64,000 bases of DNA from positions 1-64,000 of the IMG/VR virus record IMGVR_UViG_3300020057_000035, one strand, 5' to 3'. Shown one piece after another: positions 2,817-64,000 of the stretch; position 1 is the first letter of the stretch, and every line of letters starts with the position of its first letter. The position numbers and the translations under genes were made by a program. Source of the DNA: a virus. Below the pieces are notes generated by a model. It saw only the letters and a list, made by a program, of their open reading frames with translations. It was not told the origin of the DNA and searched no databases.

Positions 2817-2978
2817 TCAATTCTGGAGGAAGCACTTTCGCACGATAGTGGCTTGCCAATACCCGCCCGCATCATAGGAAGGGGATTTTACCCATTCTAC
2901 TTCGAATTGTGCGGCGCAATCGTCGCAAAGCAGGGTAGGGGTCAGGGTGTTACATTCAAGGCAGAATCCGAATTCCAT
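2817..2978 (-). CDS. zinc-ribbon-like protein, copy A
   Basis: 53 residues starting MEFGFCLECNT, with CLEC and CDDC pairs. Its first about 25 residues are shared with the genes at 3044-3184, 3250-3390 and 7293-7760, but its tail differs. Promoter at 3002-3030. Probably a small metal-binding protein of unknown partner. Confidence 0.65.
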   Translation of the reverse strand: MEFGFCLECNTLTPTLLCDDCAAQFEVEWVKSPSYDAGGYWQATIVRKCFLQN

Positions 2979-3001
2979 TGCGTTTCTCACTTCCTGATGT
3001 A

Positions 3002-3030
3002 ATCTTAGCACGTCGGGGGATTTGTGTCAA
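3002..3030 (-). promoter_or_regulatory. archetype of the repeated promoter family
   Basis: -35 TTGACA 3025-3030, 17-bp spacer, -10 TAAGAT 3002-3007, followed by the leader TACATCAGGAAGTGAG, which supplies the ribosome-binding site. Near-identical copies (start of -10 to end of -35) include 3208-3236, 3414-3442, 3710-3738, 4133-4161, 4987-5015, 5252-5280, 5961-5989, 6263-6291, 10914-10942, 11966-11994, 12828-12856, 13315-13343 and 21015-21043. Confidence 0.9.
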
Positions 3031-3043
3031 CTCCCGCTCAATT

Positions 3044-3184
3044 CTAGGATGTGCTTGCCGGGCACATATATTCGTGATAATCTTGTCCACAATCGGGGCA
3101 CGATTCGTCGAATTGTGCGGCGCAATCGTCGCAAAGCAGGGTAGGGGTCAGGGTGTTACATTCAAGGCAGAATCCGAATTCCAT
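3044..3184 (-). CDS. zinc-ribbon-like protein, copy B
   Basis: 46 residues with three Cys pairs (CLEC, CDDC, CPDC) plus a late Cys. The start follows GGAAGTGAGAAACGC. Promoter at 3208-3236. Identical to the next copy. Confidence 0.65.
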   Translation of the reverse strand: MEFGFCLECNTLTPTLLCDDCAAQFDESCPDCGQDYHEYMCPASTS

Positions 3185-3249
3185 TGCGTTTCTCACTTCC
3201 TGATGTAATCTTAGCACGTCGGGGGATTTGTGTCAACTCCCGCTCAATT

Positions 3250-3390
3250 CTAGGATGTGCTTGCCGGGCACATATATTCGTGATAATCTTGTCCACAATC
3301 GGGGCACGATTCGTCGAATTGTGCGGCGCAATCGTCGCAAAGCAGGGTAGGGGTCAGGGTGTTACATTCAAGGCAGAATCCGAATTCCAT
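3250..3390 (-). CDS. zinc-ribbon-like protein, copy C
   Basis: Exact tandem duplicate of the 3044-3184 gene with its own promoter at 3414-3442. Downstream of that promoter's -35 lies a GGGGA...TCCCC hairpin (3443-3463). Confidence 0.65.
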   Translation of the reverse strand: MEFGFCLECNTLTPTLLCDDCAAQFDESCPDCGQDYHEYMCPASTS

Positions 3391-3485
3391 TGCGTTTCTC
3401 ACTTCCTGATGTAATCTTAGCACGTCGGGGGATTTGTGTCAAGGGGAGTCGTCGAACATCCCCTCAGCACACTATGTGATTTGTG

Positions 3486-4547: not shown

Positions 4548-4651
4548 GGGTCACGTCCTTCACTTGCTGATGTAATCTTAGCACGTCGGGGGATTTGTGA
4601 AAATTGCTTTTCTCACTTCCTGATGTAATCTTAGCACGTCGGGGGATTTGT

Positions 4652-4727
4652 GTCAAGCGGCGGGCTGGCAATCGTTGCAGCCTGTGTCCTTGAATAAACC
4701 GTAATAGAACAGCACCGCTTGACTTCT
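4652..4727 (-). ncRNA. candidate structured small RNA R1, copy b
   Basis: Near-identical to copy a. Arms CCGCTTGAC 4652-4660 and GTCAAGCGG 4715-4723 (read leftward). Promoter at 4730-4758. Confidence 0.5.
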
Positions 4728-4780
4728 ACAATGTAGCACGTCGGGGGATTTGTGTCAAGCGCCGCTCTCGCTTGACATTA

Positions 4781-4966
4781 TTAGATACGAATCAATGCAT
4801 CCTGAGCGTAGTCCACGGCTTCATCAGACGTGGTAAACGTGCGGCTGAAGTAAAGATCCTCTCCCTTGAACGTGTCGGCCTGATAGATTCCATCAGGCCG
4901 TAGGTGAACGTTGACCGAGTAACCAGCGTCGTATTCGATAGTCATGTTCGTGAGTGTTCGTTTCAT
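4781..4966 (-). CDS. hypothetical 61-residue protein
   Basis: Begins MKRTLTNMTIEYDAGY. The C-terminal DEAVDYAQDALIRI looks like a small alpha/beta phage protein. Its first 11 codons and leader are reused in the chimera at 20827-20994. Promoter at 4987-5015. Confidence 0.65.
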   Translation of the reverse strand: MKRTLTNMTIEYDAGYSVNVHLRPDGIYQADTFKGEDLYFSRTFTTSDEAVDYAQDALIRI

Positions 4967-5015
4967 GTCTTTCACTTCCTGATGTAATCTTAGCACGTCG
5001 GGGGATTTGTGTCAA

Positions 5016-5040
5016 GCGCCGCTCTCGCTTGACATAATGC
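5016..5040 (-). terminator. intergenic hairpin overlapping a promoter
   Basis: GTCAAGCG-AGAGCGG-CGCTTGAC forms an 8-bp stem with a 7-base loop. Its 3' arm contains the -35 (CTTGAC) of the promoter at 4987-5015. No U-run follows. Similar hairpins occur at about 1945-1970, 2455-2480, 4753-4775, 5656-5680, 5984-6010 and 20800-20822. Confidence 0.5.
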
Positions 5041-5222
5041 TACCCGTGAAGAAGCGAATACTTTCGCAATCTTTCGCGAGATTCTTCCAATCGCTCGGAG
5101 GCGAGTTTCGCGCGAAATTCCGCAGCAAACAAGTCACGGCGAGCATCTTCGTCACGCTCTTCGTGAATTTTAATCTCTGCGCGTAGTTCACGCTCGCCAT
5201 TTTGTTCTGATACCGATTGCAT
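5040..5222 (-). CDS. hypothetical charged helical protein, short form
   Basis: 60 residues starting MQSVSEQNGERE, very rich in Arg/Glu and probably a coiled coil. The sister copy at 6014-6241 has a 15-residue insertion after HEER. Promoter at 5252-5280. Confidence 0.65.
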   Translation of the reverse strand: MQSVSEQNGERELRAEIKIHEERDEDARRDLFAAEFRAKLASERLEESRERLRKYSLLHG

Positions 5223-5314
5223 TTCTTGTCTCCCTCTCACTTCCTGATGTAATCTTAGCACGTCGGGGGATTTGTGTCAAATCATCGATTTGACTACCAC
5301 ACTTTGGGATTTGG

Positions 5315-5455: not shown

Positions 5456-5564
5456 AATATAGCACGTCGGGGAATTTGTGTCAACTCCCGTTCTGTGCTG
5501 CCAAAATTGCTTTTCTCACTTCCTGATGTAATCTTAGCACGTCGGGGGATTTGTGTCAAGCGGC

Positions 5565-5630
5565 GGGCTGGCAATCGTTGCAGCCTGTGTCCTTGAATAA
5601 ACCGTAATAGAACAGCGCCGCTTGACTTCT
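5565..5630 (-). ncRNA. candidate structured small RNA R1, copy c
   Basis: Same as R1 a/b with CCGCTTGAC 5565-5573 and GTCAAGCGG 5618-5626. A base change turns the GTG of the 20-codon frame to GCG while keeping the RNA helix. Promoter at 5633-5661. Confidence 0.5.
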
Positions 5631-5685
5631 ACAATGTAGCACGTCGGGGGATTTGTGTCAAGCGCCGCTCTCGCTTGACATAATG

Positions 5686-5940
5686 TTAGATTAGGCTCAA
5701 GGCCACGAGCCACGATGGTTGATCATGCGAACACGTTCCATCGGGTTCGATGCCACTACAGCCGTCTATGGCGCGTGCCACGCCGTCCATCATCCACCTT
5801 TCTAGGGTAGCATAGGTCGGCTGTTTTCCCTTCACGTTGGCGATTATGGCATCAGGGTAAGACGCCTGATATCTTTCAAGCGTAACGCCATCCCTGAGAG
5901 TCTTAAGACCGCGAGCTTCGCTGTAAACCTGGAGTGCCAT
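5686..5940 (-). CDS. hypothetical 84-residue protein
   Basis: Begins MALQVYSEARGLK, with two Cys near the C terminus (CSGIEPDGTC). Function not recognised. Promoter at 5961-5989 and ribosome-binding site AGGAAGTGAAAGAC. Confidence 0.65.
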   Translation of the reverse strand: MALQVYSEARGLKTLRDGVTLERYQASYPDAIIANVKGKQPTYATLERWMMDGVARAIDGCSGIEPDGTCSHDQPSWLVALSLI

Positions 5941-6013
5941 GTCTTTCACTTCCTGATGTAATCTTAGCACGTCGGGGGATTTGTGTCAAGCGCCGCTCTC
6001 GCTTGACATAATG

Positions 6014-6241
6014 CTACCCGTGAAGAAGCGAATACTTTCGCAATCTTTCGCGAGATTCTTCCAATCGCTCGGAGGCGAGTTTCGCGCGAAATTCCGCAGC
6101 AAACAAGTCACGGCGAGCATCTTCGTCACGCCTAACCTGCTTTGCGACGATTGCGTCGCACAATTCGACGAATCGCTCTTCATGAATTTTAATCTCTGCG
6201 CGTAGTTCACGCTCGCCATTTTGTTCTGATACCGATTGCAT
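6014..6241 (-). CDS. hypothetical charged helical protein, long form with inverted insert
   Basis: 75 residues, identical to the 60-residue protein of 5040-5222 except for 15 extra residues (FVELCDAIVAKQVR and one more). They come from a 45-bp insert at about 6131-6175. The insert is an inverted piece of the zinc-ribbon gene (compare 3104-3150). The insert keeps the frame. Promoter at 6263-6291. Confidence 0.65.
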   Translation of the reverse strand: MQSVSEQNGERELRAEIKIHEERFVELCDAIVAKQVRRDEDARRDLFAAEFRAKLASERLEESRERLRKYSLLHG

Positions 6242-6336
6242 TTCTTGTCACTTCCTGATGTAATCTTAGCACGTCGGGGGATTTGTGTCAACTCGATGAT
6301 TTGACTACCACACTTTGGGATTTGTGTCAAGTTCAG

Positions 6337-7292: not shown

Positions 7293-7760
7293 CTAAGGAC
7301 TCGCCCAGAATCGTCTACGTCGCCAGTCGCAATCTTTGCGGTGTTCATCGGAATGGAAAGTCGGTTCGTTTGTTTCCTTGCCACAATACATACAAGTTAC
7401 CCTGTTTTTTCCTTCACTTCCTGATGTTAATCTTAGCACGAGAGTCATCAATGAAAGGGTGGATGGTTTCGAATTCACGATACCATTCTGGGATTTTACC
7501 CATTCTACTTTGAATCTGGCGGCGCAATCGTCGCAAAGCAGGTTAGGAGTCAGGGTGTTACATTCAATGCAGAATCCGAATTCCATTGCTCTTCCTGATG
7601 TTAATCTTAGCACGAGAGTCATCAATGAAAGGGTGGATGGTTTCGAATTCACGATACCATTCTGGGATTTTACCCATTCTACTTTGAATCTGGCGGCGCA
7701 ATCGTCGCAAAGCAGGTTAGGAGTCAGGGTGTTACATTCAAGGCAGAATCCGAATTCCAT
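7293..7760 (-). CDS. chimeric zinc-ribbon fusion protein
   Basis: 155 residues: two tandem zinc-ribbon copies (MEFGFCLECNT...), each followed by a piece of fic gene read in the wrong frame and by translated promoter remnants (LVLRLTSG). The protein ends in a separate C2HC-like unit (CMYCGKE...HSDEH...C) that probably began as its own gene (about 7293-7391). Promoter at 7784-7812. The internal promoter copies have lost their -35. Confidence 0.55.
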   Translation of the reverse strand: MEFGFCLECNTLTPNLLCDDCAARFKVEWVKSQNGIVNSKPSTLSLMTLVLRLTSGRAMEFGFCIECNTLTPNLLCDDCAARFKVEWVKSQNGIVNSKPSTLSLMTLVLRLTSGSEGKNRVTCMYCGKETNEPTFHSDEHRKDCDWRRRRFWASP

Positions 7761-7780
7761 TGCGTTTCTCACTTCCTGAT
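7440..7780. repeat. tandem fusion repeat of fic fragment and zinc-ribbon gene
   Basis: Two near-identical units of about 170 bp. Each joins a fic fragment (matching 7905-7945) to the zinc-ribbon gene start at a short shared GAATGG-type junction. Confidence 0.7.
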
Positions 7781-7813: not shown

Positions 7814-8242
7814 CTATCCCCAAAGTTGCGGAGGAGTGACGGGATGATCAACATTGCCCGCTAGGATATTCCAAACTATGGAACCCGTACGTCCGTTGCC
7901 ATCAATGAAAGGGTGGATGGTTTCGAATTCACGATACCATTCTAGGGCGTCTACGTTGGCGTTGGCGAGACTTTCCATGGCGCGCGGGATATTGCTAGGA
8001 TCAACTCCCTTGTCCCCACTGGCGAACATTCTGGTAACTTTGGCATACTCCGCTGAAGACGGTTTGCCTAACACCAAACCAGCAATAAACTTGATAGTCT
8101 CGGTGTGAGTCACGGAAGGAAAACTCTTTGCATGATCCCATGCACGCAACATGTAAGGAACGAACTCTGGTCCATCCCCCTGTCGCTTAACTTCTTCTGA
8201 TGCCCAGATAACTTCGTGCAGGGTGAACATTTGTTCTCTCAT
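7814..8242 (-). CDS. fic: Fic-domain protein
   Basis: 142 residues with the Fic signature HPFIDGNGRTG near residues 110-120. Fic enzymes transfer AMP or related groups from nucleotides to hydroxyls of target proteins. The second Arg of the classic motif is not obvious (GRTGSIV), so the reaction is uncertain. The start is at 8242, or at 8230 after GAGAGAACAA. The promoter (8255-8283) is overlapped by a 23-bp palindrome. Fragments of this gene are duplicated at 7440-7490 and 7610-7660. No inhibitory antitoxin helix gene is evident beside it. Confidence 0.8.
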   Translation of the reverse strand: MREQMFTLHEVIWASEEVKRQGDGPEFVPYMLRAWDHAKSFPSVTHTETIKFIAGLVLGKPSSAEYAKVTRMFASGDKGVDPSNIPRAMESLANANVDALEWYREFETIHPFIDGNGRTGSIVWNILAGNVDHPVTPPQLWG

Positions 8243-10319: not shown

Positions 10320-10610
10320 TTACTTCACTCTGATAGTCACGAAGTAATGATGGTCACAATCATCATCTTCTGCACATTCACAAAGAAATACGTATTTCTT
10401 TGAGTATGCAGAAATATCGATCGTACTGGTATCGTAGCCTTGACATGCAAGCTGCTCACAGGCATCCTCTGCCGCTTCATGCTTACTCTGCCCAATACCT
10501 GTGGCAATGTCGTCAAAGTCCGTATAAGTCAGGCCAGCGCCGTGCCAGTATTGGCTGCTATCCCAGCATATTTCGATGTCGTACTCTGTAATTTCCATCG
10601 CGGGGGTCAT
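10320..10610 (-). CDS. paralogous acidic protein with CxC/DHH motif, copy 1
   Basis: 96 residues with a central DFDDIATGIGQS block and C-terminal CECAEDDDCDHHYFVTIRVK, possibly metal-binding. The paralog at 19297-19587 has the same length and C terminus. Start after AAGGACGTGACCC. Promoter 10639-10667. Confidence 0.7.
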   Translation of the reverse strand: MTPAMEITEYDIEICWDSSQYWHGAGLTYTDFDDIATGIGQSKHEAAEDACEQLACQGYDTSTIDISAYSKKYVFLCECAEDDDCDHHYFVTIRVK

Positions 10611-17793: not shown

Positions 17794-17867
17794 GTTTGTT
17801 CCTTTTCCTTGGTGCGTTTATTGTAGCAGCAGAACCTATTTGTGTCAAGTGACACGTTGTGTCAATC

Positions 17868-19296: not shown

Positions 19297-19587
19297 TCAC
19301 TTTACCCTGATGGTTACGAAGTAATGATGGTCACAATCATCATCTTCTGAGCACTCACACAATTGTGTGTAGTTCCCTGAGTATGCGGAAGTATCGATCG
19401 TACTGGTATCGTAACCTTGATGTGTAATCTGCTCACAAGCGTCCTCTGCCGCATCACGCTCGCTTTGACCAATACCTGTAGCAAGGTCGTCGAAGTCCAT
19501 ATAAGACTGACGCCAAAGATTGAGAGTAAAGTATTGGCTATGATCGTAGGATATCTCGATGTCGTATTGTTGAATCTTCCTCAACAT
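19297..19587 (-). CDS. paralogous acidic protein with CxC/DHH motif, copy 2
   Basis: 96 residues. Shares DFDDLATGIGQSERDAAEDAC and the CECSEDDDCDHHYFVTIRVK end with 10320-10610. Promoter 19645-19673 (TTGACA / TACTAT). Confidence 0.7.
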   Translation of the reverse strand: MLRKIQQYDIEISYDHSQYFTLNLWRQSYMDFDDLATGIGQSERDAAEDACEQITHQGYDTSTIDTSAYSGNYTQLCECSEDDDCDHHYFVTIRVK

Positions 19588-20826: not shown

Positions 20827-20994
20827 CTACCCGTGAAGCAGAAAATACTTTCGCAGTCTTTCGCGAGATTCTTCCAATCGCTCGGCAGCGAGTTTCGCGC
20901 GAAATTCCGCAGCAAACAAGTCACGGCGAGCATCTTCGTCACGCTCTTCGTGAATTTTCATCTCGATAGTCATGTTCGTGAGTGTTCGTTTCAT
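20827..20994 (-). CDS. chimeric early protein
   Basis: 55 residues. The leader and first 11 codons (MKRTLTNMTIE) come from the 4781-4966 gene, and the rest (MKIHEERDEDARRDL...) from the 5040-5222 gene, joined in frame. Promoter 21015-21043. Confidence 0.6.
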   Translation of the reverse strand: MKRTLTNMTIEMKIHEERDEDARRDLFAAEFRAKLAAERLEESRERLRKYFLLHG

Positions 20995-21103
20995 GTCTTT
21001 CACTTCCTGATGTAATCTTAGCACGTCGGGGGATTTGTGTCAAGGGCGATCTGACTTGTCGATACCAGATAGTACGTATACTACTTCGTAGCGTCCCTGA
21101 CTG

Positions 21104-24968: not shown

Positions 24969-25113
24969 ACTCCGGTGAAGCTCTTCTATTATCGCTTAGA
25001 TACAGCAGCTTCAATAGCATGGCGTGATCCATCGACTGACTATCGTTCAACCGTATCAGGAGAATCGCCGCGTCTGTCGCCTTGCTCTCATCAAAGATGA
25101 ATCTCATAGTCAT
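24805..25113 (-). pseudogene. truncated Panacea/SocA-like (DUF4065) gene
   Basis: The N-terminal about 50 residues (KATDAAILLIRLNDS...LLKLLYLSDNR) match the start of Panacea-domain (SocA-like) antitoxins. The rest is basic junk, consistent with a frameshift or fusion. Promoter 25134-25162 (TTGACA / TATAAT) contains TTGACACA-A-TGTGTCAA. Confidence 0.5.
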
Positions 25114-25133
25114 TCTTCGTCCTCTTCTTTTTC

Positions 25134-25162
25134 ATTATAGTACTCTTGACACAATGTGTCAA
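25134..25162 (-). promoter_or_regulatory. promoter containing a perfect TTGACACA-A-TGTGTCAA palindrome
   Basis: -35 TTGACA 25157-25162, -10 TATAAT 25134-25139. The 17-bp palindrome at 25146-25162 shows the extended -35 (TTGACACA) as one half of a symmetric site. Confidence 0.75.
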
Positions 25163-25383
25163 GGTGTAATGTGGCAGTTTTTAGTCTGACTGCCAACAGA
25201 TCGAGACGGTCATCAGTCGTCTCTTGCTCAATTGAATTCAGGTAGAGCTTCCAATAGGGACGGTCATCACGCGCCCCACACAAAGGAGGAGTAGGTTCTT
25301 AACGATACCTACAAACGCTTAGCAGCCACGACACTGCTTCTCAATTATATTACTTACTCTTCCGCTGGGCCGTGCAGATTGTG

Positions 25384-25827
25384 TCATTGTGCGCGCCCCC
25401 ATGCTGGACCAGGGAGCAGTTCCTCGATAGGGCCGAAGTCCTTACCGAGACCGCTGGTCGTCCAGCCGAAGGAAAGGGCAATGCCTAGGGGTTTGGTGAG
25501 GGCCGCGCGGTCGAACAGCGCGAGAACATCCTTATGACTATGGGTGTCGTTGTATCTGCTGACCGCGCCGACATCACCGATCATTAAGCGCCACCCATCG
25601 CCCGGAGGCAGAGCAGAGCGAAGAGTGTCTACAGCAGCTTCAATAGCATGGCGTGATCCATCGACTGAACCGGCCAAGCCAACCATTCGACTGGTACCGA
25701 CCGCCATAGAGACAGCCTGAACTGTACAGAGCATGCGTGGCGATTGGGGTGCCTTCCCATCCCACCAATCTTCGCGATTCTCGATAAGTTGCCGCGCGGC
25801 TTTCAGGATCTCGATTGTGTCATTCAT
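25384..25827 (-). CDS. DUF6197-like protein, paralog 1
   Basis: 147 residues beginning MNDTIEILKAARQLIENRE, with a conserved YNDTHSHKDVLALFDRA block, the layout of DUF6197 proteins. The C-terminal tail (GIALSFGWTTSG...) is unique. The start overlaps the stop of paralog 2. Function unknown. Confidence 0.7.
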   Translation of the reverse strand: MNDTIEILKAARQLIENREDWWDGKAPQSPRMLCTVQAVSMAVGTSRMVGLAGSVDGSRHAIEAAVDTLRSALPPGDGWRLMIGDVGAVSRYNDTHSHKDVLALFDRAALTKPLGIALSFGWTTSGLGKDFGPIEELLPGPAWGRAQ

Positions 25828-26143
25828 CCTCCGCACACTCTGTCTGCATAATGGCGCGGTCGAACAGCGCGAGAACATCCTCATGACTATGGGTATCGTT
25901 GTACGTGGCGAGACCGTGCCGACGCAATGTTGGTGGAAGCGCATTGAGAAGTTCGCCATAACATTCTTCCCACGCCGTGGGATAGTCAGCGCGTTTGAGT
26001 TCATGAAAATCCTTCGCCAAGGCCTGCATCACGCAAAACGTCCCGGCAGGCTGTGCCCACCAGTCCCTCCTGCCATCCCACCAGTCCTCGCGCTTCTCGA
26101 TAAGTTGCCGCGCGGCCTTCAGGATCTCGATTGTGTCATTCAT
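25820..26143 (-). CDS. DUF6197-like protein, paralog 2
   Basis: 107 residues with the same ends (MNDTIEILKAARQLIEKRE; YNDTHSHEDVLALFDRA). Ends TECAEDE, a cut-down version of the tail in paralog 3. Start after GAGGTAAACGA. Confidence 0.7.
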   Translation of the reverse strand: MNDTIEILKAARQLIEKREDWWDGRRDWWAQPAGTFCVMQALAKDFHELKRADYPTAWEECYGELLNALPPTLRRHGLATYNDTHSHEDVLALFDRAIMQTECAEDE

Positions 26144-26144
26144 T

Positions 26145-26345
26145 CGTTTACCTCTGTCGCCGCAATGGCGCGGTCGAATAGGGGCGAGAACGTCCTCATG
26201 GCTATGGGTGTTCCTACACTACTTATCAAGCCAGTCATATATCCCCCTCGATGCTGCATATTCACGCCTTTGATCGTCAAGTGTATTTTGCCATTCATCC
26301 TCCGCACACTCTGTCGCCGCAATGGCGCGGTCGAACAGCGCGAGA
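26145..26345 (-). pseudogene. partial DUF6197 gene duplication
   Basis: A fragment between paralogs 2 and 3 repeats the ALFDRAIAATE region (26158-26200 and 26312-26345) in a frame fused to unrelated sequence, indicating incomplete duplication. Confidence 0.4.
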
Positions 26346-26611
26346 ACATCCTTATGACTATGGGTGTCGTTGTATCTGCTGACCGCGCCGACATCGTCGG
26401 TCATTTTCGCGCCCGGAGGCAGGGCGGCAAACAGAGCGTCCAAAGTAAACCAACCGGCCAAGCCACCCCTTGACTGATACTGAATGCGGGCCGTGGAGAC
26501 AGCCTGCACCGCACAGAGCCGCTGTTCTACGCCCCCGCTGCCATCCCACCAATCCTCGCGCTTCTCGATAAGTTGCCGCGCGGCTTTCAGGATCTCGATT
26601 GTGTCATTCAT
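26219..26611 (-). CDS. DUF6197-like protein, paralog 3 with Cys-rich-family tail
   Basis: 130 residues. DUF6197-like body plus an ECAEDEWQNTLDDQRREYAASRGI tail nearly identical to the C terminus of the 11432-11665 protein: a fusion. Start after GGAGAAAGAAAGAAA. Confidence 0.7.
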   Translation of the reverse strand: MNDTIEILKAARQLIEKREDWWDGSGGVEQRLCAVQAVSTARIQYQSRGGLAGWFTLDALFAALPPGAKMTDDVGAVSRYNDTHSHKDVLALFDRAIAATECAEDEWQNTLDDQRREYAASRGIYDWLDK

Positions 26612-26635
26612 TTTCTTTCTTTCTCCTAGTAAAGT

Positions 26636-30042: not shown

Positions 30043-30237
30043 CTATTTATTTTTATACCCTATTGTCATGTATACCTGATTGGCGCGTTTCACGTCTACA
30101 TGTAGATTAGCTTGAGTTAGTCTTTGTGTCAACAGTGTGTCACTTTTTATTTCGTGTCTGAGGAACTGTAGGAACACGTTTTCAGCCTCTTTTAGAAAAA
30201 AGTAGTAGTTAGGTAGCTCTTCGTCCCTCAATGCCAC
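30043..30237 (-). CDS. hypothetical 64-residue protein
   Basis: GTG start at 30237 after GTAGGAACGCC. Reads MALRDEELPNYYFFLK. No clear promoter. Confidence 0.45.
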   Translation of the reverse strand: MALRDEELPNYYFFLKEAENVFLQFLRHEIKSDTLLTQRLTQANLHVDVKRANQVYMTIGYKNK

Positions 30238-30502
30238 CTGTGGGCGTTCCTACGGCTTCTCAGAGGTATTGTAGGTATAGTCCGCTAGGGATGTTAGACC
30301 GCTCTGAAGACTTTCTTGTTTCTTATGCCCAAAGTAAAGACAAGGTAAAGATTTTGCTCTTTTCAAAAGTTTTGTCCACAGATCTGGCTCAACCTCTGTA
30401 TTATATAGGATACCAGTTTTATTCCTTGTGTTGTTTATTTCGTCAATTAAACTTTAGGTAGAAAATTAGAAGATGATACTTGATTTTGAGTAACCAAGCC
30501 CG
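30238..30502. other. no gene recognised
   Basis: A+T-rich spacer. TATAAT near 30402 on the minus strand lacks a -35. I see no protein or RNA I can support. Confidence 0.5.
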
Positions 30503-34155: not shown

Positions 34156-34233
34156 GTTGACACAACGTGTCGTTGACACAACGTGTCGTTGACACAACGT
34201 GTCGTTGACACAAATACAAAACTGTGTTAAGAT
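34156..34233 (+). promoter_or_regulatory. operator array and promoter
   Basis: Three exact 16-bp repeats GTTGACACAACGTGTC at 34156-34171, 34172-34187 and 34188-34203, followed by promoter TTGACA 34205-34210 / TAAGAT 34228-34233. Confidence 0.75.
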
Positions 34234-47903: not shown

Positions 47904-50900
47904 ATGAAAACTGTAGATATTAAGTTAGGTGATTTTGAAAAAAAGGGAATATCAGCTCCAGATAGTTGGAGTGAAAAAGCAATAGGAATTGCAGCTAGAA
48001 TATATATGACACCAGATGAATATTCTATATATGATTTAATTGATAGAGTAGTAAATAGAATAGTAGAAACTGGTGAAAGATTAAATTATTTTCCTCAAGT
48101 CATCAAAAAAGAAGAGTTTAAATATAAATTAAGAGACATATTATTAGATCAAAAAGCAGCGTTTAATACACCAGTATGGTGTAACGTTGGTGTTCCACAC
48201 AGAGATGAACAATCATGGGCTTGTATTCAATATGATACTAGAATGCTCACTAATAGGGGACTGGAGAAAATAGGAGAAATAGAAAACCTAAATAGACTGT
48301 TTTATACTCCTAATGGATGGTCCGATGGTTTTTCTTGGAAAACAGGTACTAAAAAAACAATAAATATATCCTTATCTAACGGAATGAATATTACTACCAC
48401 ACTAGATCATAAGTTTGTAGTAGGAGAAGCATTAGAAGAAGCGCAGTTTTTAAATAATTTTAAACTTGAGCCTTTTTTAGGAAAAGGAAATTGGATTAAT
48501 GGAAACGATTTAGATTTGTCTTTCATAGAATTAACTAAATTGGGATACATACAAGGAGACGGATGCGTTAGTAATGAGGGGTGGGTTGGTTATTTCGGAG
48601 AGAAAGACAACGACGTTAGGGACTTTTTCGGAAACGAAGAAGGAACAATAAGATCATCTCAAGAAACTGGAATTTATTTTGGAAAATATACATCTCTCAA
48701 TAAAGCGGCGGATTTATTAGGTTTAGAAAGAGTCTCGTTGCCAAATAGAGATCTTCCTAAAAATTCTTTTACTTTAACACCAGAAGGCATGGCTGCTTTT
48801 CTTAGAGGACTATATAGCGCTAATGGATACGTGTTGGTTGATAAGAAAAATGCATCTAGGATATCCCTTAAGACGACTTCTATTTCTCTCGCTATAAACA
48901 CTCAAAGAATGTTATTAGCCTTGGGAATTAGATCTTCTGTAAATTCAAAGAAATCAAAAAATATAATTTGGAAAAACGGAGAATATATATCTAAAAAAGC
49001 TTACGAGCTTAATATTTTATCTAATGAATATAAGGAAAAATTTCAAGAATTAATTGGATTTATTCATGAATATAAAAATAATAAAATAAATACTGCTTTA
49101 TCCACTACTAAGAGAGAATCACGATATATTAAAATACCAGTAGTTATAAATATCGAAGAGATGGAAGAACAAGAGGTTTACGATTTTAACGTAAAGGATA
49201 ATTCTCATGTTGGGTGGGCAAATGGGTTTGCTGTTCATAACTGCCTGATCCTTGATGTAAAGGATAGTATGAAATCTATCGAAGAAGGGTGGCTTATAGA
49301 ATCTAAAACATTTCAAGGTGGAAGTGGAAGCGGTGTGAATGTTAGTAAGATTAGAGCAGATGGAGAACCTATAGTAGGTGGTGGATATGGAAGTGGACCT
49401 ATTTCACTATGGATGCGCCCCACAGACTCTATAGCTGGTGTAGTAAAATCTGGCGGGAAGTGTCTTGCTGGAAATCAAAAAGTCTATACAAATAATGGTC
49501 CAAAAGAAGTTAAAGAATTAGCAGATTCTAATGAGAAATTTATTGTTTTATCTTATGATCCTCCAGCTAAAAGATATAAAGCTAAATGGGCTTCGGCATG
49601 GAAAAGTGGACAAAAAGAAGTAATAAGAATAACTACAGATAAAGGATATTTTGATCTTTCTTATGATCATCCTATACGTTTATCTGATACTACAGTAGTT
49701 AAAACAGAAGATTTAGTAGTTGGGCAATCTTTATTTGCTTGTTCTATAGATGAATCAGAAGGATATGTTCGTGTTCATTTAAGGGATGGAAAAAAAGGAA
49801 AAGAAAAACTACATAGATTATTAGCTAAAGATATATTAAATGAAAAAATTGATGGAATGTCAGTTCATCATTTAGATTGTAATAAAACAAATAATTCTTT
49901 ACATAATATCGCAGTTCTTACTCAAAAGGAACATTCTGCAATACACGCTACTATGCAAGTAGAAAATAATTCTCATGTTTTTCAAATATCTACTTTTTCT
50001 CATGCAGGAATAGATAATGGAATGCATTCTTCAGGAACTTTTTGGAGCAATGAAGAAAAAGCTAAAGAATTTAGAAAGAAAAAATCTGAAGAGCTACTAA
50101 CTAGGGGTGATGCTGCTAATATGCAAAAAACAGCAGTTAAACAAAAAATGATTAATACTGGATTTAAATTAATTAATTTAGGTTGTGATATATCTACATT
50201 TGATAGCTATGTTTCTGCTAGAAAAACTAATATTGGACCATTAGGGTGTTCCACTAAAAAAATAGAAGAAAAATTTATAAATCAATTCGGAGGATACAAT
50301 AATTATATAAAAGAATTATCCAACCTTAATCATAGAGTAGTTTCTATAGAGTCTCTTGGTATTATGGATGTTTATAGTGTTGAAGTAGAGTGTCCAACTT
50401 TAGACGATAAAACATCTGAGTCTGGGCATAATTTCGTTATTTGGTCTAATGCTTCTGATAGTGTTTATGGAAGTGGAATAGTTGTATTTAATACACGTAG
50501 AGCTGCCAAATTAATTTGTATGGATGTTGATCATCCAGAAATAATGGATTTTATTAAATTAAAAGCAAAAGCAGAAAAAATGGCTAGAGATTTACTTAAT
50601 CTTGATTATGATATTTCGATGACTGGTAAAGACTCAGCTAATATACCGTTTCAAAATGCAAATAATAGCGTCAGAGTAACTGATAAATTTATGAATGCAG
50701 TAGAAAATGACTTAGATTGGGAAACCACATATAGAACAACAGGCGAGGTAGCGAAGACATATAAAGCGAGAGATTTATGGTATGAAATAGCAAAAGCTTC
50801 GTGGGACTGCGGTGATCCAGGACTCCAGTTTCATGATACTACTAACGCTATGAATAGTTGTTTGAATGACGGAGAAATAGTAGCAAGTAACCCGTGCGTT

Positions 50901-53852
50901 ACTGCTGACACGTTAGTTTCTACTGAAAAAGGGCTTATTAAGATAATTGATTTAATAAATCAAGATATTAAAATAACAGGAGCAGATGGTGAATTACATC
51001 ATATGTCTCGTGCTTGGAAAACAGGTACAAAAGAAATATTTAAACTTACTACTAAGAGTGGTTTTTCTATTAAATTAACATCTGATCATAAGGTTCTTAC
51101 TTCTTCTGGAGACATTAAAGCAAAGGATCTTACTTCTGATATGAAAATTAAACTTAATAGATTTAATTTTGGTAAAGAACACTTAGATATTAGAATTGCT
51201 GAATTTATTGGACTAGCTGTTGGTGATGGATGTAAAACAACAGATGGAGCAATAACAATTACTCTTTCTCCAGAAGAATATACAATGGCTAAACGAATAC
51301 ATGACAATCTTTCTTCTTTTAAATTAGAATTCTCAGAAGATAATTTAGGAAAAAGAAAAACAAGTATTCATCAGCCTCAAAAAACCCTAAGAATAACATG
51401 TAATACAAAATTAATTAATTCTATTTCAGATAAATTTGCTATATTAAATGAAAAATCTGATAAGAAATTATTTACTGATTCTATTTATTCTTTAGATCAA
51501 GAATCAGTAGCTTCTTTATTAAGAGGGCTTTTTTCTGCTGATGCTACAGTAGCAAATTATGGACAAAAATCACAATATATTTCTCTTGATTCTACTTCTT
51601 TAATTCTTCTAGAACAAGTTCAACTTCTTCTTTTGGGGTTTGGAATTAAAGCTAAATTATATAAAAATAGAAAACTAGCTGGTTTTTCTTTACTTCCTGA
51701 TGGAAAAGGTGGGCAAAAAAAGTATCCCACTAACTGTTTGAGAATTTCTAAAGCAGGAAGAAGATTATTTCAAGAGCACATAGGGTTTTTAGAGGGAAGT
51801 AAAAAGAACCTACAACTTAATGATATGAACTCTACCATTTCTTCATATAGTGAACCATTAGAAGATAATTTTTCTTCACTAGAATATATTGGAGAAGAAG
51901 ATGTATATGATTTAACTGAGGGAAGTACTAATCATTTTGTTGCTAATGGGCTAATAGTACATAATTGCAACGAGTATGTCTGGCATAATAATACAGTTTG
52001 TAATCTGGCTTCAATTAATTTAATAAAATATCTTAAAAATGATAATAGTTTTGATACTGAGACGTTTCTAAACGACTGTAAAATAATGATTATAGCCATG
52101 GATATACTTGTAGATTTGAGTTCATATCCAACAAAAACAATAGAAAAAACCTCCAAAAGATATAGAACATTAGGATTAGGTTTTACTAATCTTGGTGCAT
52201 TACTTATGTCTTTAGGAATAGCTTACGATAGTGATGAAGGTAGAGATATAGCAACATCAATTATGTCTGCTATGCAAGTAGCAGCTATTAATCAAAGTCA
52301 AACTTTAGGTGAAGTATTGGGGTCTTATCCAGCATTAAAAAACAATGTAGATCATCAAGCTTCCGTATTACTGAAGCATTATAATTCGTGGAAAACTAAG
52401 AGTTCTATTTATTCTCTCTCTCAAGATATAGATGAGATTTCCTCATCAGAATGGGGAAACGTTATGCCATACAGTCCACGAAGAAATGCTCAATTAAGCG
52501 TGATAGCCCCGACTGGCACGATATCGTTTTTGATGGATTGCGAAACAACAGGAATTGAACCAGTATTAGCTGTTAATGCTAAAAAAGATTTAGTTAACGG
52601 CGGTACATTAGACGTTGGTGTAGATGAATGTGTAAAAGCAGGGATCAATAGCATTAGAAATAATACAATTAATGGAAAAACACTATCTGATCAATATATT
52701 TTGAATTCATACACAAAAATATTTCAAACTAGTCTTGGTGATAATTCTGTCAGCCCAGAAGGACACGTCAAAATGTTAGCTGCTGTGCAGCCTTTTGTGT
52801 CTGGTAGTATTAGTAAAACCTGTAACGTACCAGCAGAGTCCACAATAGAAGATATAGAAAATATCCATATGTTAGCTTGGAAACTAGGAGTTAAAAATAT
52901 TGCTATATTCAGGGATGGAAGCAAGACATATCAACCAGTTAATCAAATTAAAAAAGAAGAAAAACTTACAAGTGAGGCTACCAACGAAATGCACAAGCTC
53001 ATAGAGGCCGCACGCGGAATCAAGATGTCCGCCGAGGAGAAAGAGCGGCAACGGCGGAGTTTCGCCTATGGCAACACTCACGCTGAGAACGAAAAGATAA
53101 CCCGAGCGACAATAGATGATGCGGCTGACAGGCTGACTAATGCACAAGTTATTAGTGTTACACCTACATTAGATTGGAGTGCAATTACCAACACTACAAA
53201 TACTTCTTCTCATGCCTCTATGGTTATTTCTAGTGTTGCTATTTTCCCTGAACCAAAGGGAACAGTAAGAAGAAAACCAAATGGAACAAGAGTAGGAGAT
53301 ACGCATAAGTTCAATATAGCAGAAGATGAATATTACTTAACTATGAACTATTATGAGGATGGGCTACCTTGTGAGATATTCCTGAGAAATAATAAACACG
53401 GTTCTAATATCGGTGGTTGGGTTGATGCTTTTTCTATTGCAATTAGTTTTGGACTCCAACATGGTGTGCCTATAGAAAAATTCATAGAGCAATTTAGAAG
53501 AAGTAACTTCTTACCTAGTGGTTTAGTAGAAAGCGACTCCAGTATTAAAATGGCAGATAGTCCATTAGACTATGTGGTAAGATGGATAGAGCACAAACTA
53601 CAACACAATAAAGAAGACAAGAGATTTAACAAGAATGTGACACAATTAGATACTAGTACAGTATCCGTAGTCCCTACTTATGTCTCTTCTTATTCTCATG
53701 AACCTGATATTTATCCTAGTTTAAAAACTAATACTAGATTAAGATCTGGAGCACCAACAGAGTGTCCTTTCTGTGCTAGTGATGATATTAGAGATACAGG
53801 AACTTGTTTCACTTGTGGTACTTGCGGAGAGTCTATAGGAGGATGCGCTTAG
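47904..53852 (+). CDS. nrdJ: class II (B12-dependent) ribonucleotide reductase with three inteins
   Basis: 1982 residues, about 941 after splicing. Extein motifs: FNTPVWCNVG, FQGGSGSGVNVS, KTRRAAKLICMDVDHPEI, ASNP|CNEY, TGTISFLMDC, SKTCNVP, then a TSCPD-like region (GSNIGGWVDAF) and a C-terminal CPFC/CFTCGTCG ribbon. It reduces ribonucleotides to deoxyribonucleotides using adenosylcobalamin. A G+C-rich insert occupies about 52975-53145. SD is weak, start AAGGAAAATAA-ATG. Confidence 0.92.
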   Translation: MKTVDIKLGDFEKKGISAPDSWSEKAIGIAARIYMTPDEYSIYDLIDRVVNRIVETGERLNYFPQVIKKEEFKYKLRDILLDQKAAFNTPVWCNVGVPHRDEQSWACIQYDTRMLTNRGLEKIGEIENLNRLFYTPNGWSDGFSWKTGTKKTINISLSNGMNITTTLDHKFVVGEALEEAQFLNNFKLEPFLGKGNWINGNDLDLSFIELTKLGYIQGDGCVSNEGWVGYFGEKDNDVRDFFGNEEGTIRSSQETGIYFGKYTSLNKAADLLGLERVSLPNRDLPKNSFTLTPEGMAAFLRGLYSANGYVLVDKKNASRISLKTTSISLAINTQRMLLALGIRSSVNSKKSKNIIWKNGEYISKKAYELNILSNEYKEKFQELIGFIHEYKNNKINTALSTTKRESRYIKIPVVINIEEMEEQEVYDFNVKDNSHVGWANGFAVHNCLILDVKDSMKSIEEGWLIESKTFQGGSGSGVNVSKIRADGEPIVGGGYGSGPISLWMRPTDSIAGVVKSGGKCLAGNQKVYTNNGPKEVKELADSNEKFIVLSYDPPAKRYKAKWASAWKSGQKEVIRITTDKGYFDLSYDHPIRLSDTTVVKTEDLVVGQSLFACSIDESEGYVRVHLRDGKKGKEKLHRLLAKDILNEKIDGMSVHHLDCNKTNNSLHNIAVLTQKEHSAIHATMQVENNSHVFQISTFSHAGIDNGMHSSGTFWSNEEKAKEFRKKKSEELLTRGDAANMQKTAVKQKMINTGFKLINLGCDISTFDSYVSARKTNIGPLGCSTKKIEEKFINQFGGYNNYIKELSNLNHRVVSIESLGIMDVYSVEVECPTLDDKTSESGHNFVIWSNASDSVYGSGIVVFNTRRAAKLICMDVDHPEIMDFIKLKAKAEKMARDLLNLDYDISMTGKDSANIPFQNANNSVRVTDKFMNAVENDLDWETTYRTTGEVAKTYKARDLWYEIAKASWDCGDPGLQFHDTTNAMNSCLNDGEIVASNPCVTADTLVSTEKGLIKIIDLINQDIKITGADGELHHMSRAWKTGTKEIFKLTTKSGFSIKLTSDHKVLTSSGDIKAKDLTSDMKIKLNRFNFGKEHLDIRIAEFIGLAVGDGCKTTDGAITITLSPEEYTMAKRIHDNLSSFKLEFSEDNLGKRKTSIHQPQKTLRITCNTKLINSISDKFAILNEKSDKKLFTDSIYSLDQESVASLLRGLFSADATVANYGQKSQYISLDSTSLILLEQVQLLLLGFGIKAKLYKNRKLAGFSLLPDGKGGQKKYPTNCLRISKAGRRLFQEHIGFLEGSKKNLQLNDMNSTISSYSEPLEDNFSSLEYIGEEDVYDLTEGSTNHFVANGLIVHNCNEYVWHNNTVCNLASINLIKYLKNDNSFDTETFLNDCKIMIIAMDILVDLSSYPTKTIEKTSKRYRTLGLGFTNLGALLMSLGIAYDSDEGRDIATSIMSAMQVAAINQSQTLGEVLGSYPALKNNVDHQASVLLKHYNSWKTKSSIYSLSQDIDEISSSEWGNVMPYSPRRNAQLSVIAPTGTISFLMDCETTGIEPVLAVNAKKDLVNGGTLDVGVDECVKAGINSIRNNTINGKTLSDQYILNSYTKIFQTSLGDNSVSPEGHVKMLAAVQPFVSGSISKTCNVPAESTIEDIENIHMLAWKLGVKNIAIFRDGSKTYQPVNQIKKEEKLTSEATNEMHKLIEAARGIKMSAEEKERQRRSFAYGNTHAENEKITRATIDDAADRLTNAQVISVTPTLDWSAITNTTNTSSHASMVISSVAIFPEPKGTVRRKPNGTRVGDTHKFNIAEDEYYLTMNYYEDGLPCEIFLRNNKHGSNIGGWVDAFSIAISFGLQHGVPIEKFIEQFRRSNFLPSGLVESDSSIKMADSPLDYVVRWIEHKLQHNKEDKRFNKNVTQLDTSTVSVVPTYVSSYSHEPDIYPSLKTNTRLRSGAPTECPFCASDDIRDTGTCFTCGTCGESIGGCA
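48222..49241 (+). other. intein 1 of the reductase
   Basis: 340 residues from Cys 107 (CIQYDTRMLTNRG) to GFAVHN before extein CLILDV. It has DOD/LAGLIDADG-like blocks (YIQGDGCV, FLRGLYSANG) and block B TTTLDHKF, so probably a homing intein. Confidence 0.85.
49461..50492 (+). other. intein 2 of the reductase (HNH type)
   Basis: 344 residues from CLAGNQKVYTNNG to GIVVFN before extein TRRAAK. Block B FDLSYDHPIRLS. HNH core VHHLDCNKTNNSLHNI. The penultimate residue is Phe rather than His, and the +1 extein residue is Thr. Confidence 0.85.
50895..51965 (+). other. intein 3 of the reductase
   Basis: 357 residues from CVTADTLVSTEKG to GLIVHN, inserted in the active-site loop ASNP|CNEY. LAGLIDADG-like blocks IGLAVGDGC and LLRGLFSADA. 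Confidence 0.85.
52975..53145 (+). other. G+C-rich domain insert within the reductase
   Basis: Encodes NEMHKLIEAARGIKMSAEEK and RRSFAYGNTHAENEKITRAT, reminiscent of a small stand-alone protein of proteobacteria and their phages. Codon use is strikingly different from the flanking A+T-rich sequence, pointing to recent in-frame insertion in the linker before the C-terminal domains. Confidence 0.7.
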
Positions 53853-54776: not shown

Positions 54777-54981
54777 AAGAGACGAAATCGCAAAAGGCAC
54801 TAATAAAATGCCTTGGGTAGAAAGAGTACCGAACGATCTACTTAAGCAAAAACCAAAAACAATAGAAAAATGGTATAATAGAGATAGTACTATTAAATGC
54901 TTTATTTGTGCATTATCTATAGGTACACTAATTAAAGTTAAAGACGGGATTTATACGCATAAAAATTGTCAAGTGAATTAA
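54769..54981 (+). CDS. hypothetical protein with C-terminal zinc motif
   Basis: 70 residues from MFRRDEIAKG, start overlapping the preceding stop. Ends CFIC...HKNC. Its end overlaps the terminase start. Confidence 0.6.
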   Translation: MFRRDEIAKGTNKMPWVERVPNDLLKQKPKTIEKWYNRDSTIKCFICALSIGTLIKVKDGIYTHKNCQVN

Positions 54982-57473
54982 GTCCAATTGACGCCATAAA
55001 ACAAATGGCGAAAGACAACTTAGCAATATACATTAGTTTAGTTCATAAAACAGATAGTGGAGGAATGGCAATTCCTCCAGCGCATATCTTAAATAAAATA
55101 ATTCCAGTACTAGAAGACGAAACTAACGGACATACACTAATTATTGCTCCTCCCGGTAGTGCAAAAACCAATACAATGATCGCTTACTGTTGTTGGTTAT
55201 TAGGCAAAAATCCTAATTTACATATTGGGTATTTGAGTTCTACTTCTACTCAAGCAACACAAAGATCTGTTGCTATTAGAGATATTATAGATTTAAGTAA
55301 AGAATATAGAGATATATTTCCTTTAACTTTGCCTGATAAAAGTAGAGGATGGGCAGAAGCAGAATGGTTCGTTAAGAGAGCAGATGTAGGGGATAAAAAT
55401 GCCTCTATGATTATATCTGGTACTCCGGGAAACATTCTTGGTTCTAGATTAGACTTAATTGTGTTGGATGACATAGCGGATGAAGAAAATATGGCAACTG
55501 CTTTACAAAGAGCAAAGGTTATTAACTTTCTGCAAAAAACAGTAGATACAAGACTAACTCCATTAGGTAGAATAGTACTAATCTGTGTTACTGGAGACAG
55601 TAAAGTATCTACTAATAAAGGACCAATAGAAATAAAGGATATAAAAATTGGAGATCTAGTTTGGTCTTTAAATGAAAATAAACAATTTGAATTACAAAAA
55701 GTAACAGATCAATTTTCAACTGGGATAAATAAAGTATTTAAAGTATCTACTAGATTGAAAGAAGTAAAGGCCACTGCATATCATCCATTTCTTTGTATTG
55801 AAGATGATGGATCTTTAGTATATAAAAAAGTAGAAGATCTTAAGAAAAGAGATAAATTAGTAGTTGAGCATGAATTACCTGAATATGGAACACCATATGA
55901 ATTATCAGATGGAACATTTACAGACTCTGATTTTATGTGGTTATTTGGGTTTTTAACTGGAGACGGGTGGGTAACTGCTAGAAATAGAGCCGCCAAATGG
56001 CTTGTTTGTATGGCAAAAGGTGTGCATAAAGAAGTTAATGATAAAGCTTTTTCTCTGTTTACTAAATTCGGAAAAAAAGAACCATCCTATACTAGATTTG
56101 GGTATTGGAGATTAGATGATGCCCCTACTGGTAGATACGGATTCAAGAGAAACTTAGGACAGATACTAATAGATGCAGAATTTCAACAAGGAGCATGTAA
56201 TAAATCTGTTCCTGATTGGATTTACACATTACCTAATGATCAACGTAAGGCTTTTATTCTTGGTCTTTTAGCGGCGGACGGACATAAAGGCACTTATTCT
56301 AATAATTCATATATATTATCCTCAGTAAGTAAGTGTTTAGTTGAGAAAACAAGACTGTTAGCTATGACGTGTGGGATTACACCAGCTAAATTACGAGAAA
56401 GCACTAGAATAATACAAGCACCGCACTCTAAAGCCCCGTCTCTTCACACAGAATTCTCTTGTTCTTTTAATTTTGATTATAATGTAAAAAAGAACCATAT
56501 TATTCATAATAATGGTTTACATTATGAGTTTGTTAAAGAAATTGAGTATTCAGGAGAGGAAGAAACTTTCGATATTACAGTAGAAAACACACATAACTTT
56601 GTTGTAGACGGTATGACAACCGCAAATTGTACGAGATGGTCAGAATCTGATCCAGCAGATTGGGCAATGAAGCAAGGCTGGAAAAAAGTACATATTAAAG
56701 CAATAGATGAAGAGGGCAGAGCTTACTGGCCTGATTATTGGCCTATTGAGAGATTAGCTTGTCCTGATAACATACATGGTAAGATTTTATTAACTGATGG
56801 GGGGAACGCATGCTACATGCAACCACTGCCTTCTGGTGGATTTAGACCAATTAACTGCAAGAAAAGAGCAGGTTCTGTTGCTTTTGCTCAACAGTATCAA
56901 GGTGAAGTATTTGACGAAGAAAGCAGTATAATCAAAAGAAGCTGGTGGAAATCATATGAAAAACTACCAGAAAGTACAATAGAAAAACCAATAGATTTAA
57001 TAGGCGGTATCTTTATTGATACTGCACATACAGAAAAAACATATTCTGATTACTCTGTAGCAACTGTCATGTATACAGATGGTAATAAGTTTTATATAGA
57101 AAACTTAATGAGAAAAAAATTAGAATTCCCTAGACTAAAAGATGAAATTAAAATTATTAAATCAAGATATGACTTACCGCTCTATATTGAGTCAAGTGTT
57201 GGTTCCTTAGCTTTAATTTCTGAACTTAAACAAGATTTTCCAGACGTAATAGCGTGGGAAAATAAAGGAAAAAGTAAAATGACCAGAGTACAATCTATTA
57301 TAGGTAAAATAGAAGGCAATGGTGTGTATCTAAAACAAGATTCTCCTTGGGTAGAGGACTTTATATCAGAATGTGAAGCTTTTCCACACGGAAGACACGA
57401 TGATCAAGTAGACGCTTTGTCTATGGGTTTAATGATTCTTGGTCCAAGTAAGATTGTTTGGACTACGATCTAA
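54966..57473 (+). CDS. terL: terminase large subunit with intein
   Basis: 835 residues, about 487 spliced. Walker A LIIAPPGSAKT, Walker B LDLIVLDDIADEE, coupling motif CTRW split by the intein, then a nuclease domain (GGIFIDTAHTEKTYSDYS, HDDQVDALSMG). It powers DNA packaging into heads. TTG start at 54966 overlapping the previous gene. Confidence 0.92.
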   Translation: MSSELSPIDAIKQMAKDNLAIYISLVHKTDSGGMAIPPAHILNKIIPVLEDETNGHTLIIAPPGSAKTNTMIAYCCWLLGKNPNLHIGYLSSTSTQATQRSVAIRDIIDLSKEYRDIFPLTLPDKSRGWAEAEWFVKRADVGDKNASMIISGTPGNILGSRLDLIVLDDIADEENMATALQRAKVINFLQKTVDTRLTPLGRIVLICVTGDSKVSTNKGPIEIKDIKIGDLVWSLNENKQFELQKVTDQFSTGINKVFKVSTRLKEVKATAYHPFLCIEDDGSLVYKKVEDLKKRDKLVVEHELPEYGTPYELSDGTFTDSDFMWLFGFLTGDGWVTARNRAAKWLVCMAKGVHKEVNDKAFSLFTKFGKKEPSYTRFGYWRLDDAPTGRYGFKRNLGQILIDAEFQQGACNKSVPDWIYTLPNDQRKAFILGLLAADGHKGTYSNNSYILSSVSKCLVEKTRLLAMTCGITPAKLRESTRIIQAPHSKAPSLHTEFSCSFNFDYNVKKNHIIHNNGLHYEFVKEIEYSGEEETFDITVENTHNFVVDGMTTANCTRWSESDPADWAMKQGWKKVHIKAIDEEGRAYWPDYWPIERLACPDNIHGKILLTDGGNACYMQPLPSGGFRPINCKKRAGSVAFAQQYQGEVFDEESSIIKRSWWKSYEKLPESTIEKPIDLIGGIFIDTAHTEKTYSDYSVATVMYTDGNKFYIENLMRKKLEFPRLKDEIKIIKSRYDLPLYIESSVGSLALISELKQDFPDVIAWENKGKSKMTRVQSIIGKIEGNGVYLKQDSPWVEDFISECEAFPHGRHDDQVDALSMGLMILGPSKIVWTTI
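55584..56627 (+). other. intein of the terminase (LAGLIDADG type)
   Basis: 348 residues from CVTGDSKVSTNKG to VDGMTTAN before extein CTRW. Block B KATAYHPFL. Endonuclease blocks LFGFLTGDGW and LGLLAADGH. The last residue is Asn, preceded by Ala instead of His. Confidence 0.88.
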
Positions 57474-62312: not shown

Positions 62313-62327
62313 TATAATAAACATATG
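62313..62327 (+). promoter_or_regulatory. extended -10, leaderless start of tnpB
   Basis: TGATATAATAAACATATG: TG-n-TATAAT at 62313-62318 with 6 nt to ATG 62325. -35 weak. Confidence 0.55.
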
Positions 62328-63473
62328 CCAAATAAAATAAAAACAAGAAAGCATATGATAAAAACATACCAATATAGATTACAAACAAGAAAAAATACAG
62401 AAGAGAAATTATTATTCACTCTTGAGCAGTGTAGATTGCTTTACAATAAGATATTAGAAACAAAAATTAAATATTATGAAATAGAAATTAAATCATTATC
62501 TATGTTTGATTGTAATAATTTAATTAAAACTTGGGAAATAAAAAATGTTAATGCTCAAGTATTGCAAAATGTTTCAGCAAGAGTAGATAATGCATTTAAA
62601 GGCTTTTTCAGAAGACTAAAAACAAAAGAAAAAAAAGCTGGTTTTCCTAGATTTAGGGGATTTAATAGATATGATTCTTTTACCTTTCCTCAATATGGAT
62701 TTAAATTGAATGGAAAATATCTCAAACTACAAAATATTGGAATTGTTAAAGTAATTTTACATAGACCAATTGAAGGTAGAATTAAAACATGTACAATTAA
62801 ACGAAATGGATTAAATCAATGGTTTGTTAGTTTTGTTTGTGAAATAGATAAAGAAATAATTATTAGTGATAATAAAAAAGCAATAGGTATTGATGTTGGG
62901 TGTAATAAATTTGCAGTAACAAGTGATAATACAATAATTGAGCACCCACATTATTACAGACAATCAGAAAAAAAACTAAAAGAACTTCAATCAAACTTTA
63001 ATGAAGTAATCAATTTATCAAATGATAATAAAAAGAAAATAAATATAAGGAAAAAACTAACAAGAACACATATTAAAGTAAAGAATCAAAGAAAAGATTT
63101 CTTACACAAAACAAGTAGAAGTATAGTAAATGAAAATGGTATTATTTGTGTAGAAAAACTAAATATTAAGAAAATGACTTCTGATAACTGGAAGTCACTA
63201 AACAAAAGCATGCTTGATGGTGGTTGGTATAACTTCAAACAAATGCTAACTTACAAGGCAGAATGGGCCGGTAAGAAAGTAGTTGAAGTAAATCCAGCAT
63301 TCACCAGTCAAACATGTAGTAAATGTGGAAATATTAAAAAGAAAGAATTAAATGAAAGAGTACATAATTGTTCATTTTGTGGATTAATATGTGATCGAGA
63401 TTTTAATGCTTCTTTAAATATATTAAGAGTTGGGATGAACTCTTTGAGTAGAAATATTCTAAATGCTGTTTAA
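62325..63473 (+). CDS. tnpB: TnpB RNA-guided nuclease (IS200/IS605 type)
   Basis: 382 residues. N-terminal YQYRLQTRKNTEEKLLFTLE, RuvC motifs GIDVGCNKFAV (Asp), ICVEKLNIKKM (Glu) and CDRDFNASLNIL (Asp), four-Cys ribbon CSKCGN...CSFCG. No TnpA nearby, so it is not self-mobile. A guide RNA would be expected from its 3' end (about 63400-63600). Confidence 0.88.
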   Translation: MPNKIKTRKHMIKTYQYRLQTRKNTEEKLLFTLEQCRLLYNKILETKIKYYEIEIKSLSMFDCNNLIKTWEIKNVNAQVLQNVSARVDNAFKGFFRRLKTKEKKAGFPRFRGFNRYDSFTFPQYGFKLNGKYLKLQNIGIVKVILHRPIEGRIKTCTIKRNGLNQWFVSFVCEIDKEIIISDNKKAIGIDVGCNKFAVTSDNTIIEHPHYYRQSEKKLKELQSNFNEVINLSNDNKKKINIRKKLTRTHIKVKNQRKDFLHKTSRSIVNENGIICVEKLNIKKMTSDNWKSLNKSMLDGGWYNFKQMLTYKAEWAGKKVVEVNPAFTSQTCSKCGNIKKKELNERVHNCSFCGLICDRDFNASLNILRVGMNSLSRNILNAV

Positions 63474-63828: not shown

Positions 63829-64000
63829 TTCTACTGCCACAATGCCGCTGAGAAGCTGTAGGAACGCGCTGAGACAGCTTTGTGGTTAAAAAGCTGTCTA
63901 ACTACTACTTTTCTAAATGAGGGCGGAAAACGTGTTTCTGCTATACTTAGTATATCGGAGTATACAATTATTTATACAGATTGTGTTGGAATGTCGGGGG
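63829..64000. other. noncoding tail of the window
   Basis: Contains an AAGCTGT...ACAGCTT hairpin (63853-63893) and TGTAGGAACGCGCTGAGA, which partly matches the spacer before thyX (46586-46610, inverted). No gene. Confidence 0.45.

Follow-up and report, generated by a model that had tools for sequence, protein, structure and literature searches.

The window analysed here comprises bases 1 to 64,000 of a 111,848-bp IMG/VR virus record from an uncultured phage. Its left arm (about 1 to 28 kb) has a GC content of 34 to 52%, versus 29 to 36% beyond 34 kb, and is packed with small minus-strand genes. Between or before these genes lie about 49 promoter-RBS cassettes (TTGACACAAATCCCCCGACGTGCTAAGATTACATCAGGAAGTGA and variants), all in a single orientation. 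By its motifs, the cassette is a predicted sigma-70-type promoter (TTGACA, 17 bp, TAAGAT), closely followed by a Shine-Dalgarno-like AGGAAG. One of these cassettes (about 6246 to 6292, minus strand) precedes the minus-strand gene at 6014 to 6241, whose 75-aa product has no named family or recognised domain in PHROG or Pfam and is charged and probably helical. Tandem GTGTCAACGACACGTT repeats at about 34157 to 34216 resemble a site at 17837 to 17865 and are possible operators; they also resemble the -35 region of the cassettes.

The gene at 6014 to 6241 contains the 60 codons of a sister gene at 5040 to 5222 (minus strand, 60 aa) plus 45 bp, which add 15 codons (FVELCDAIVAKQVRR). The two are duplicates, promoter and 3′ flank included: over 316 aligned nt they differ by one synonymous substitution, one 8-bp deletion in the leader and the 45-bp insert. 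The substitution, C to T, lies about 6 nt from the insert junction. Such near-identity marks 6014-6241 as a recent duplicate of 5040-5222. A third paralog, at 20827 to 20991 (minus strand), also lacks the 45 bp. It shares its N-terminus (MKRTLTNMTIE) and its promoter with the gene at 4781 to 4970 and the body of its sequence with the 5040 gene, and is thus itself a chimera; in a self-comparison, 4935-5016 is identical to 20963-21044 (100%). Since this third paralog is without the 45 bp, the difference between the two duplicates is an insertion in 6014-6241 rather than a deletion in 5040-5222.

The insert occupies 6131 to 6175 (minus strand). Read in the plus direction, it carries the codons P N L L C D D C V A Q F D E S of a zinc-ribbon gene, which lies on the minus strand at 3044 to 3184, with an identical copy at 3250 to 3390 and variants at 2817 to 2978, about 7490 to 7587 and about 7664 to 7761. 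This gene has a weak Pfam DZR match, below the cut-off. The insert, read on the gene strand, is identical at 43 of 45 positions to plus-strand segment 3101-3145, the closest donor segment; it thus matches the reverse complement of the zinc-ribbon gene there and equally at 3307-3351. The variants at 2895, 7503 and 7677 are less similar. As inverted-repeat arms, 3101-3148 and 6128-6175 are 94% complementary over 48 nt. The 32-nt core of the match occurs 4 times in the 64,000-nt window and in none of 100 dinucleotide shuffles, and the pair is the top inverted match in a self-comparison of the whole 111,848-bp record (E of about 1e-12). The original prediction of an inverted, in-frame zinc-ribbon fragment, and of one gene equalling the other plus 45 bp, is therefore borne out, coordinates included. 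The insert-free paralog at 20827-20991, together with the five zinc-ribbon copies, identifies the zinc-ribbon gene as the source and 6014-6241 as the recipient. However, no zinc-ribbon copy is identical to the insert. Two positions differ from the 3101 and 3307 copies, and the A at position 20 is unique to the insert. The insert is a mosaic, with a left part of the 3101 type, a GGTTAGG end as in the 7503 and 7677 copies and one private base. An ancestral or unsampled zinc-ribbon copy as donor, or later changes within the insert, must therefore be assumed from this comparison.

The junctions can be read base by base. The empty site is GAAGAGCG^TGACGAAG (in the sister gene, GAAGAGCG^TGACG), and the filled site reads GAAGAG-CGATTCG...TTAGG-CGTGACGAAG. 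The donor shares 2 bp (CG) with the recipient at the left junction and 1 bp (G) at the right, GCG flanks the insert on both sides and none of the recipient bases was lost. Microhomology of 1 to 2 bp is close to the level expected by chance. The insertion had also been described as precise; ends with only 1 to 2 bp of microhomology and without a site motif do not support precision of the kind that a dedicated recombinase would give.

Within the insert, 6142 to 6159 (minus strand) form a hairpin with a perfect 7-bp stem, TGCGACG-CAAT-CGTCGCA. The donors have one mismatch (TGCGGCG), and it is the private base that makes the stem perfect; only 2 of the 135 possible single changes give a perfect stem of at least 7 bp. 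Quasipalindrome mutations are known to make a repeat perfect in this way (PMC6357072). A second hairpin, GTCAAATC-GAT-GATTTGAC at 5276 to 5294 (minus strand), stands ahead of the sister gene's promoter. Four copies of it lie before promoters (3714, 10918, 6267 and 5256). Three have the loop ATC, and the 5256 copy has the inverted loop GAT together with a perfected arm. The 3′ half of the 5256 copy and the 5′ half of the 6267 copy are exact reverse complements, and a single event thus accounts for the three substitutions of the 5256 copy. Spacer inversion with arm homogenisation has been reported as a signature of polymerase template switching (PMC8604942). When 71 paralogous alignments were scanned for substitution clusters of this kind, the 5256 locus was the only one to emerge.

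A second inverted patch, of 30 nt, lies at 19504 to 19533 (minus strand) inside the gene at 19297 to 19587 and has one mismatch to plus-strand positions 592 to 621, its partner in a transfer that may have run either way. About 24 nt of it replace 18 nt of the paralog at 10320-10610, in frame and with homology to the paralog on both flanks, and its end homology is about 2 to 4 bp. Direct copying also occurs: 44 bp of a Fic gene (7900-7943) recur at 7446 to 7489 (minus strand), where they are read in a different frame as the tail of a zinc-ribbon ORF, and again at 7620-7663. Very recent duplications span 335 bp (100%, 2902-3236 and 3108-3442), 194 bp (100%, 4964-5157 and 5938-6131) and 179 bp (99%, 4600-4778 and 5503-5681). 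Another shuffling hot spot, at 25001 to 26612, is a cluster of partly duplicated ORF pieces of 39 to 139 bp with 86 to 100% identity. Altogether, 28.5 kb here contained 632 direct ectopic pairs, mostly promoter cassettes, and 7 inverted ones, comprising the two independent patches and one short palindromic repeat. The control phages, Lactococcus phage 949, T4, Shrew and Minnie, a small set without close relatives of this phage, gave no inverted pairs and at most 6 direct ones in 50-kb stretches under identical settings.

We consider it about 70% probable that a double template switch left the insert behind while phage DNA was being replicated or repaired. From the insert's homology, orientation, polarity, junctions, frame and recency we infer the following course at the level of the polymerase. 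While the duplicated gene was being copied, the 3′ end of the nascent strand would have left its template at ...GAAGAGCG and annealed, through about 2 bp, to the complementary strand of a zinc-ribbon gene a few kb away. The polymerase would then have copied about 44 nt of the opposite strand, which would explain why the piece is inverted, before a match of 1 to 2 bp took it back to the position that it had left on the first template; this would account for the GCG on either side. The 45 bp are a multiple of three and brought in no stop codon, so the reading frame stayed open and the predicted protein grew by 15 residues. Events of the same type probably gave rise to the second inverted patch and to the inversion of the hairpin spacer.

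Template switching should leave an inverted copy of an identifiable template, and the 45-bp block is such a copy of the zinc-ribbon gene. It should also perfect arms or invert spacers at imperfect hairpins, as seen in the loop and arm at 5276-5294 and in the stem of the insert. The intact recipient sequence and the insert-free third paralog agree with this explanation, and the CG and G microhomologies are compatible with it at a level not above chance. Moreover, the lone substitution between the duplicates (1 over 308 nt) lies near the junction, as error-prone switching would give, a coincidence with a chance of about 5% by our estimate. The palindrome and near-junction arguments are post hoc, having been raised after the data were seen. 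Against a double switch, no extant copy is the donor, and an unsampled or ancestral variant or several later changes are needed; end joining at a double-strand break could also give a similar scar.

On that view, a break in the recipient gene, for example a homing endonuclease cut, would have taken up a short loose piece of DNA or a stretch filled in from a template. The insert ends almost without homology, the GCG on both sides could be a filled-in overhang of 2 to 3 nt, and HNH and LAGLIDADG endonuclease domains are encoded. However, the inversion of the hairpin spacer and the sequence-replacing patch at 19504-19533 would go unexplained, and the record contains no PF02735 match, hence no sign of insertion through a phage-encoded Ku, though host factors could act. 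We therefore regard this route as unlikely. Still less likely is an artefact, in which a chimeric read or an inverted chimera from multiple displacement amplification (MDA) made the junctions. The record is a metagenome virus contig, the region is repeat-rich and MDA chimeras are mostly inverted, with 2 to 21 nt of priming homology (PMC1855051). Yet a chimera would equal its source, whereas the insert differs from every zinc-ribbon copy in the assembly and has one unique base, which argues against an assembly error. An artefact would further need two junctions that return to the same base, and the ORF remains open; MDA chimeras are, moreover, mostly inversions with intervening deletions (PMC1855051). 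The sole second assembly found does not reach the insert. It emerged from a ThyX search as one independent, near-identical contig, IMGVR_UViG_3300020192_000074 (25.6 kb), which is 99.976% identical to window positions 36783-57445 and matches there only, outside the insert region. At this level of identity, nearly the same phage has been assembled elsewhere.

A check for other insertions in related phages, proposed earlier, yielded none to compare: the region had no match in the phages collection, and the promoter cassette had none in viral_contigs or genome_contigs. The 75-aa protein and the RecA-like protein were likewise without a match in viral_contigs.

The original prediction also raised selection for new coding combinations, which the in-frame state of the insert hardly supports. 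When random 20- to 70-bp inserts, taken from the zinc-ribbon gene or from the whole left arm, were placed in the recipient ORF in simulation, the ORF stayed open in 18 to 22% of trials, and in 56 to 67% when the length was a multiple of three. Since about one in five random inserts keeps the ORF open, frame survival is weak evidence for selection, and we rejected it as a sign of it. The same survival rate weighs against a system dedicated to diversification, whether DGR-like, retron, integron-like or based on a phage recombinase, that would shuffle small-gene pieces under selection for new proteins. Very many duplicated pieces do lie under identical promoters, several coding chimeras exist (6014, 19297, 20827 and 7446) and a RecA-like gene is encoded. 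On the other hand, the inserts have no common boundary or length, and generic mechanisms are enough. A DGR or retron was rejected, as the record, possibly incomplete, holds no PF00078 reverse transcriptase match. We thus consider a dedicated system very improbable. The suspicion of an active recombination process stands in part: the direct pairs, the 194- and 335-bp duplications at 100%, the second inverted patch and the inverted hairpin spacer show a region that is actively rearranging, but no special system is needed, as template switching suffices.

A phage recombinase had been suggested as worth looking for, and the record does encode a RecA-like protein and an exonuclease (phrog_284), besides a Pol I-type polymerase, a DnaB-like helicase, a primase, HNH endonucleases and inteins. 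These generic replication and recombination functions suffice for the insertion. An intein lies in the 1982-aa ribonucleotide reductase ORF at 47904-53852, with LAGLIDADG and HNH domains, and another in the large terminase ORF at 54966-57473. A TnpB/OrfB-like gene (IS605 family, with a Cas12f-like TNB domain) is present at 62325-63473; related segments of about 50 to 104 bp, one downstream at 63839-63939 and two far off at 30170-30272 and at 101966-102014 of the record, are perhaps element ends or a guide-RNA scaffold. Five perfect copies of TGTTTCACGTGAAACA, identical to the bacterial parS consensus, lie at 250, 298, 6337, 14657 and 22094, all within the left 22 kb. The record has no match to a ParB or ParB_N domain, and these sites are possibly bound by the host ParB.

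Short-range template switching and quasipalindrome mutation, as studied in E. coli reporters (PMC6357072, PMC7202029), yeast coding genes (PMC8604942) and great apes (PMC7954356), resemble the present case: a copied segment is inverted, homology at the junctions is tiny, spacers are inverted with homogenised arms and several nucleotides change together within coding sequence. In those systems the template is nearby or is the other hairpin arm, whereas in the phage a different gene, about 3 kb distant, supplies the donor type, and 15 codons were gained. The MMBIR/FoSTeS insertions (PMC2621351, PMC8421209) are also short, templated from another locus and made by switching at microhomology; they come from human and cancer genomes, and the phage case has no visible break or large rearrangement. 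The mobile regulatory cassettes of T4-type phages, or PeSLs, in which an early promoter is fused to a stem-loop terminator, are likewise repeated between small genes and offer homology for shuffling (Arbiol 2010 and Comeau 2014, as cited in PMC4503421). We rejected this identity for our cassettes: a strong hairpin overlaps the -35 box in only 5 of 49, and the inverted insert lies outside any cassette. In archaeal viruses, conserved strong early promoters precede anti-defence genes (PMC11065993). There too, many small genes each stand behind the same regulatory sequence, but the phage promoters are predicted to be of the bacterial sigma-70 type, and the likeness is one of layout.

The insertion is real, recent, inverted, in frame and between genes, its surroundings are an array of small early-type genes that duplicates strongly, and a double template switch explains it best. 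Its mechanism is already known; the value of the case lies in having a clear donor type, an empty site and a filled site in one phage genome. Since the third paralog also sets the polarity, the descent of an antisense-derived coding segment can be followed at the level of single bases. The setting, with about 49 same-strand cassettes driving duplicated small genes, is more unusual than the insertion itself. Rather speculatively, the left arm could serve as a gene nursery, where the near-identical cassettes would express any short ORF, frequent duplication and direct or inverted template switching would build new small proteins out of parts of older ones and inverted patches would offer antisense-derived segments for selection. 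The origins of the many orphan small genes of phages are poorly understood. A single such jump is a known kind of mutation, and the locus captures, in nature, one way in which viruses reshape their small genes. Should related phages bear this out, the share of template switching in new phage proteins could be measured in this region.
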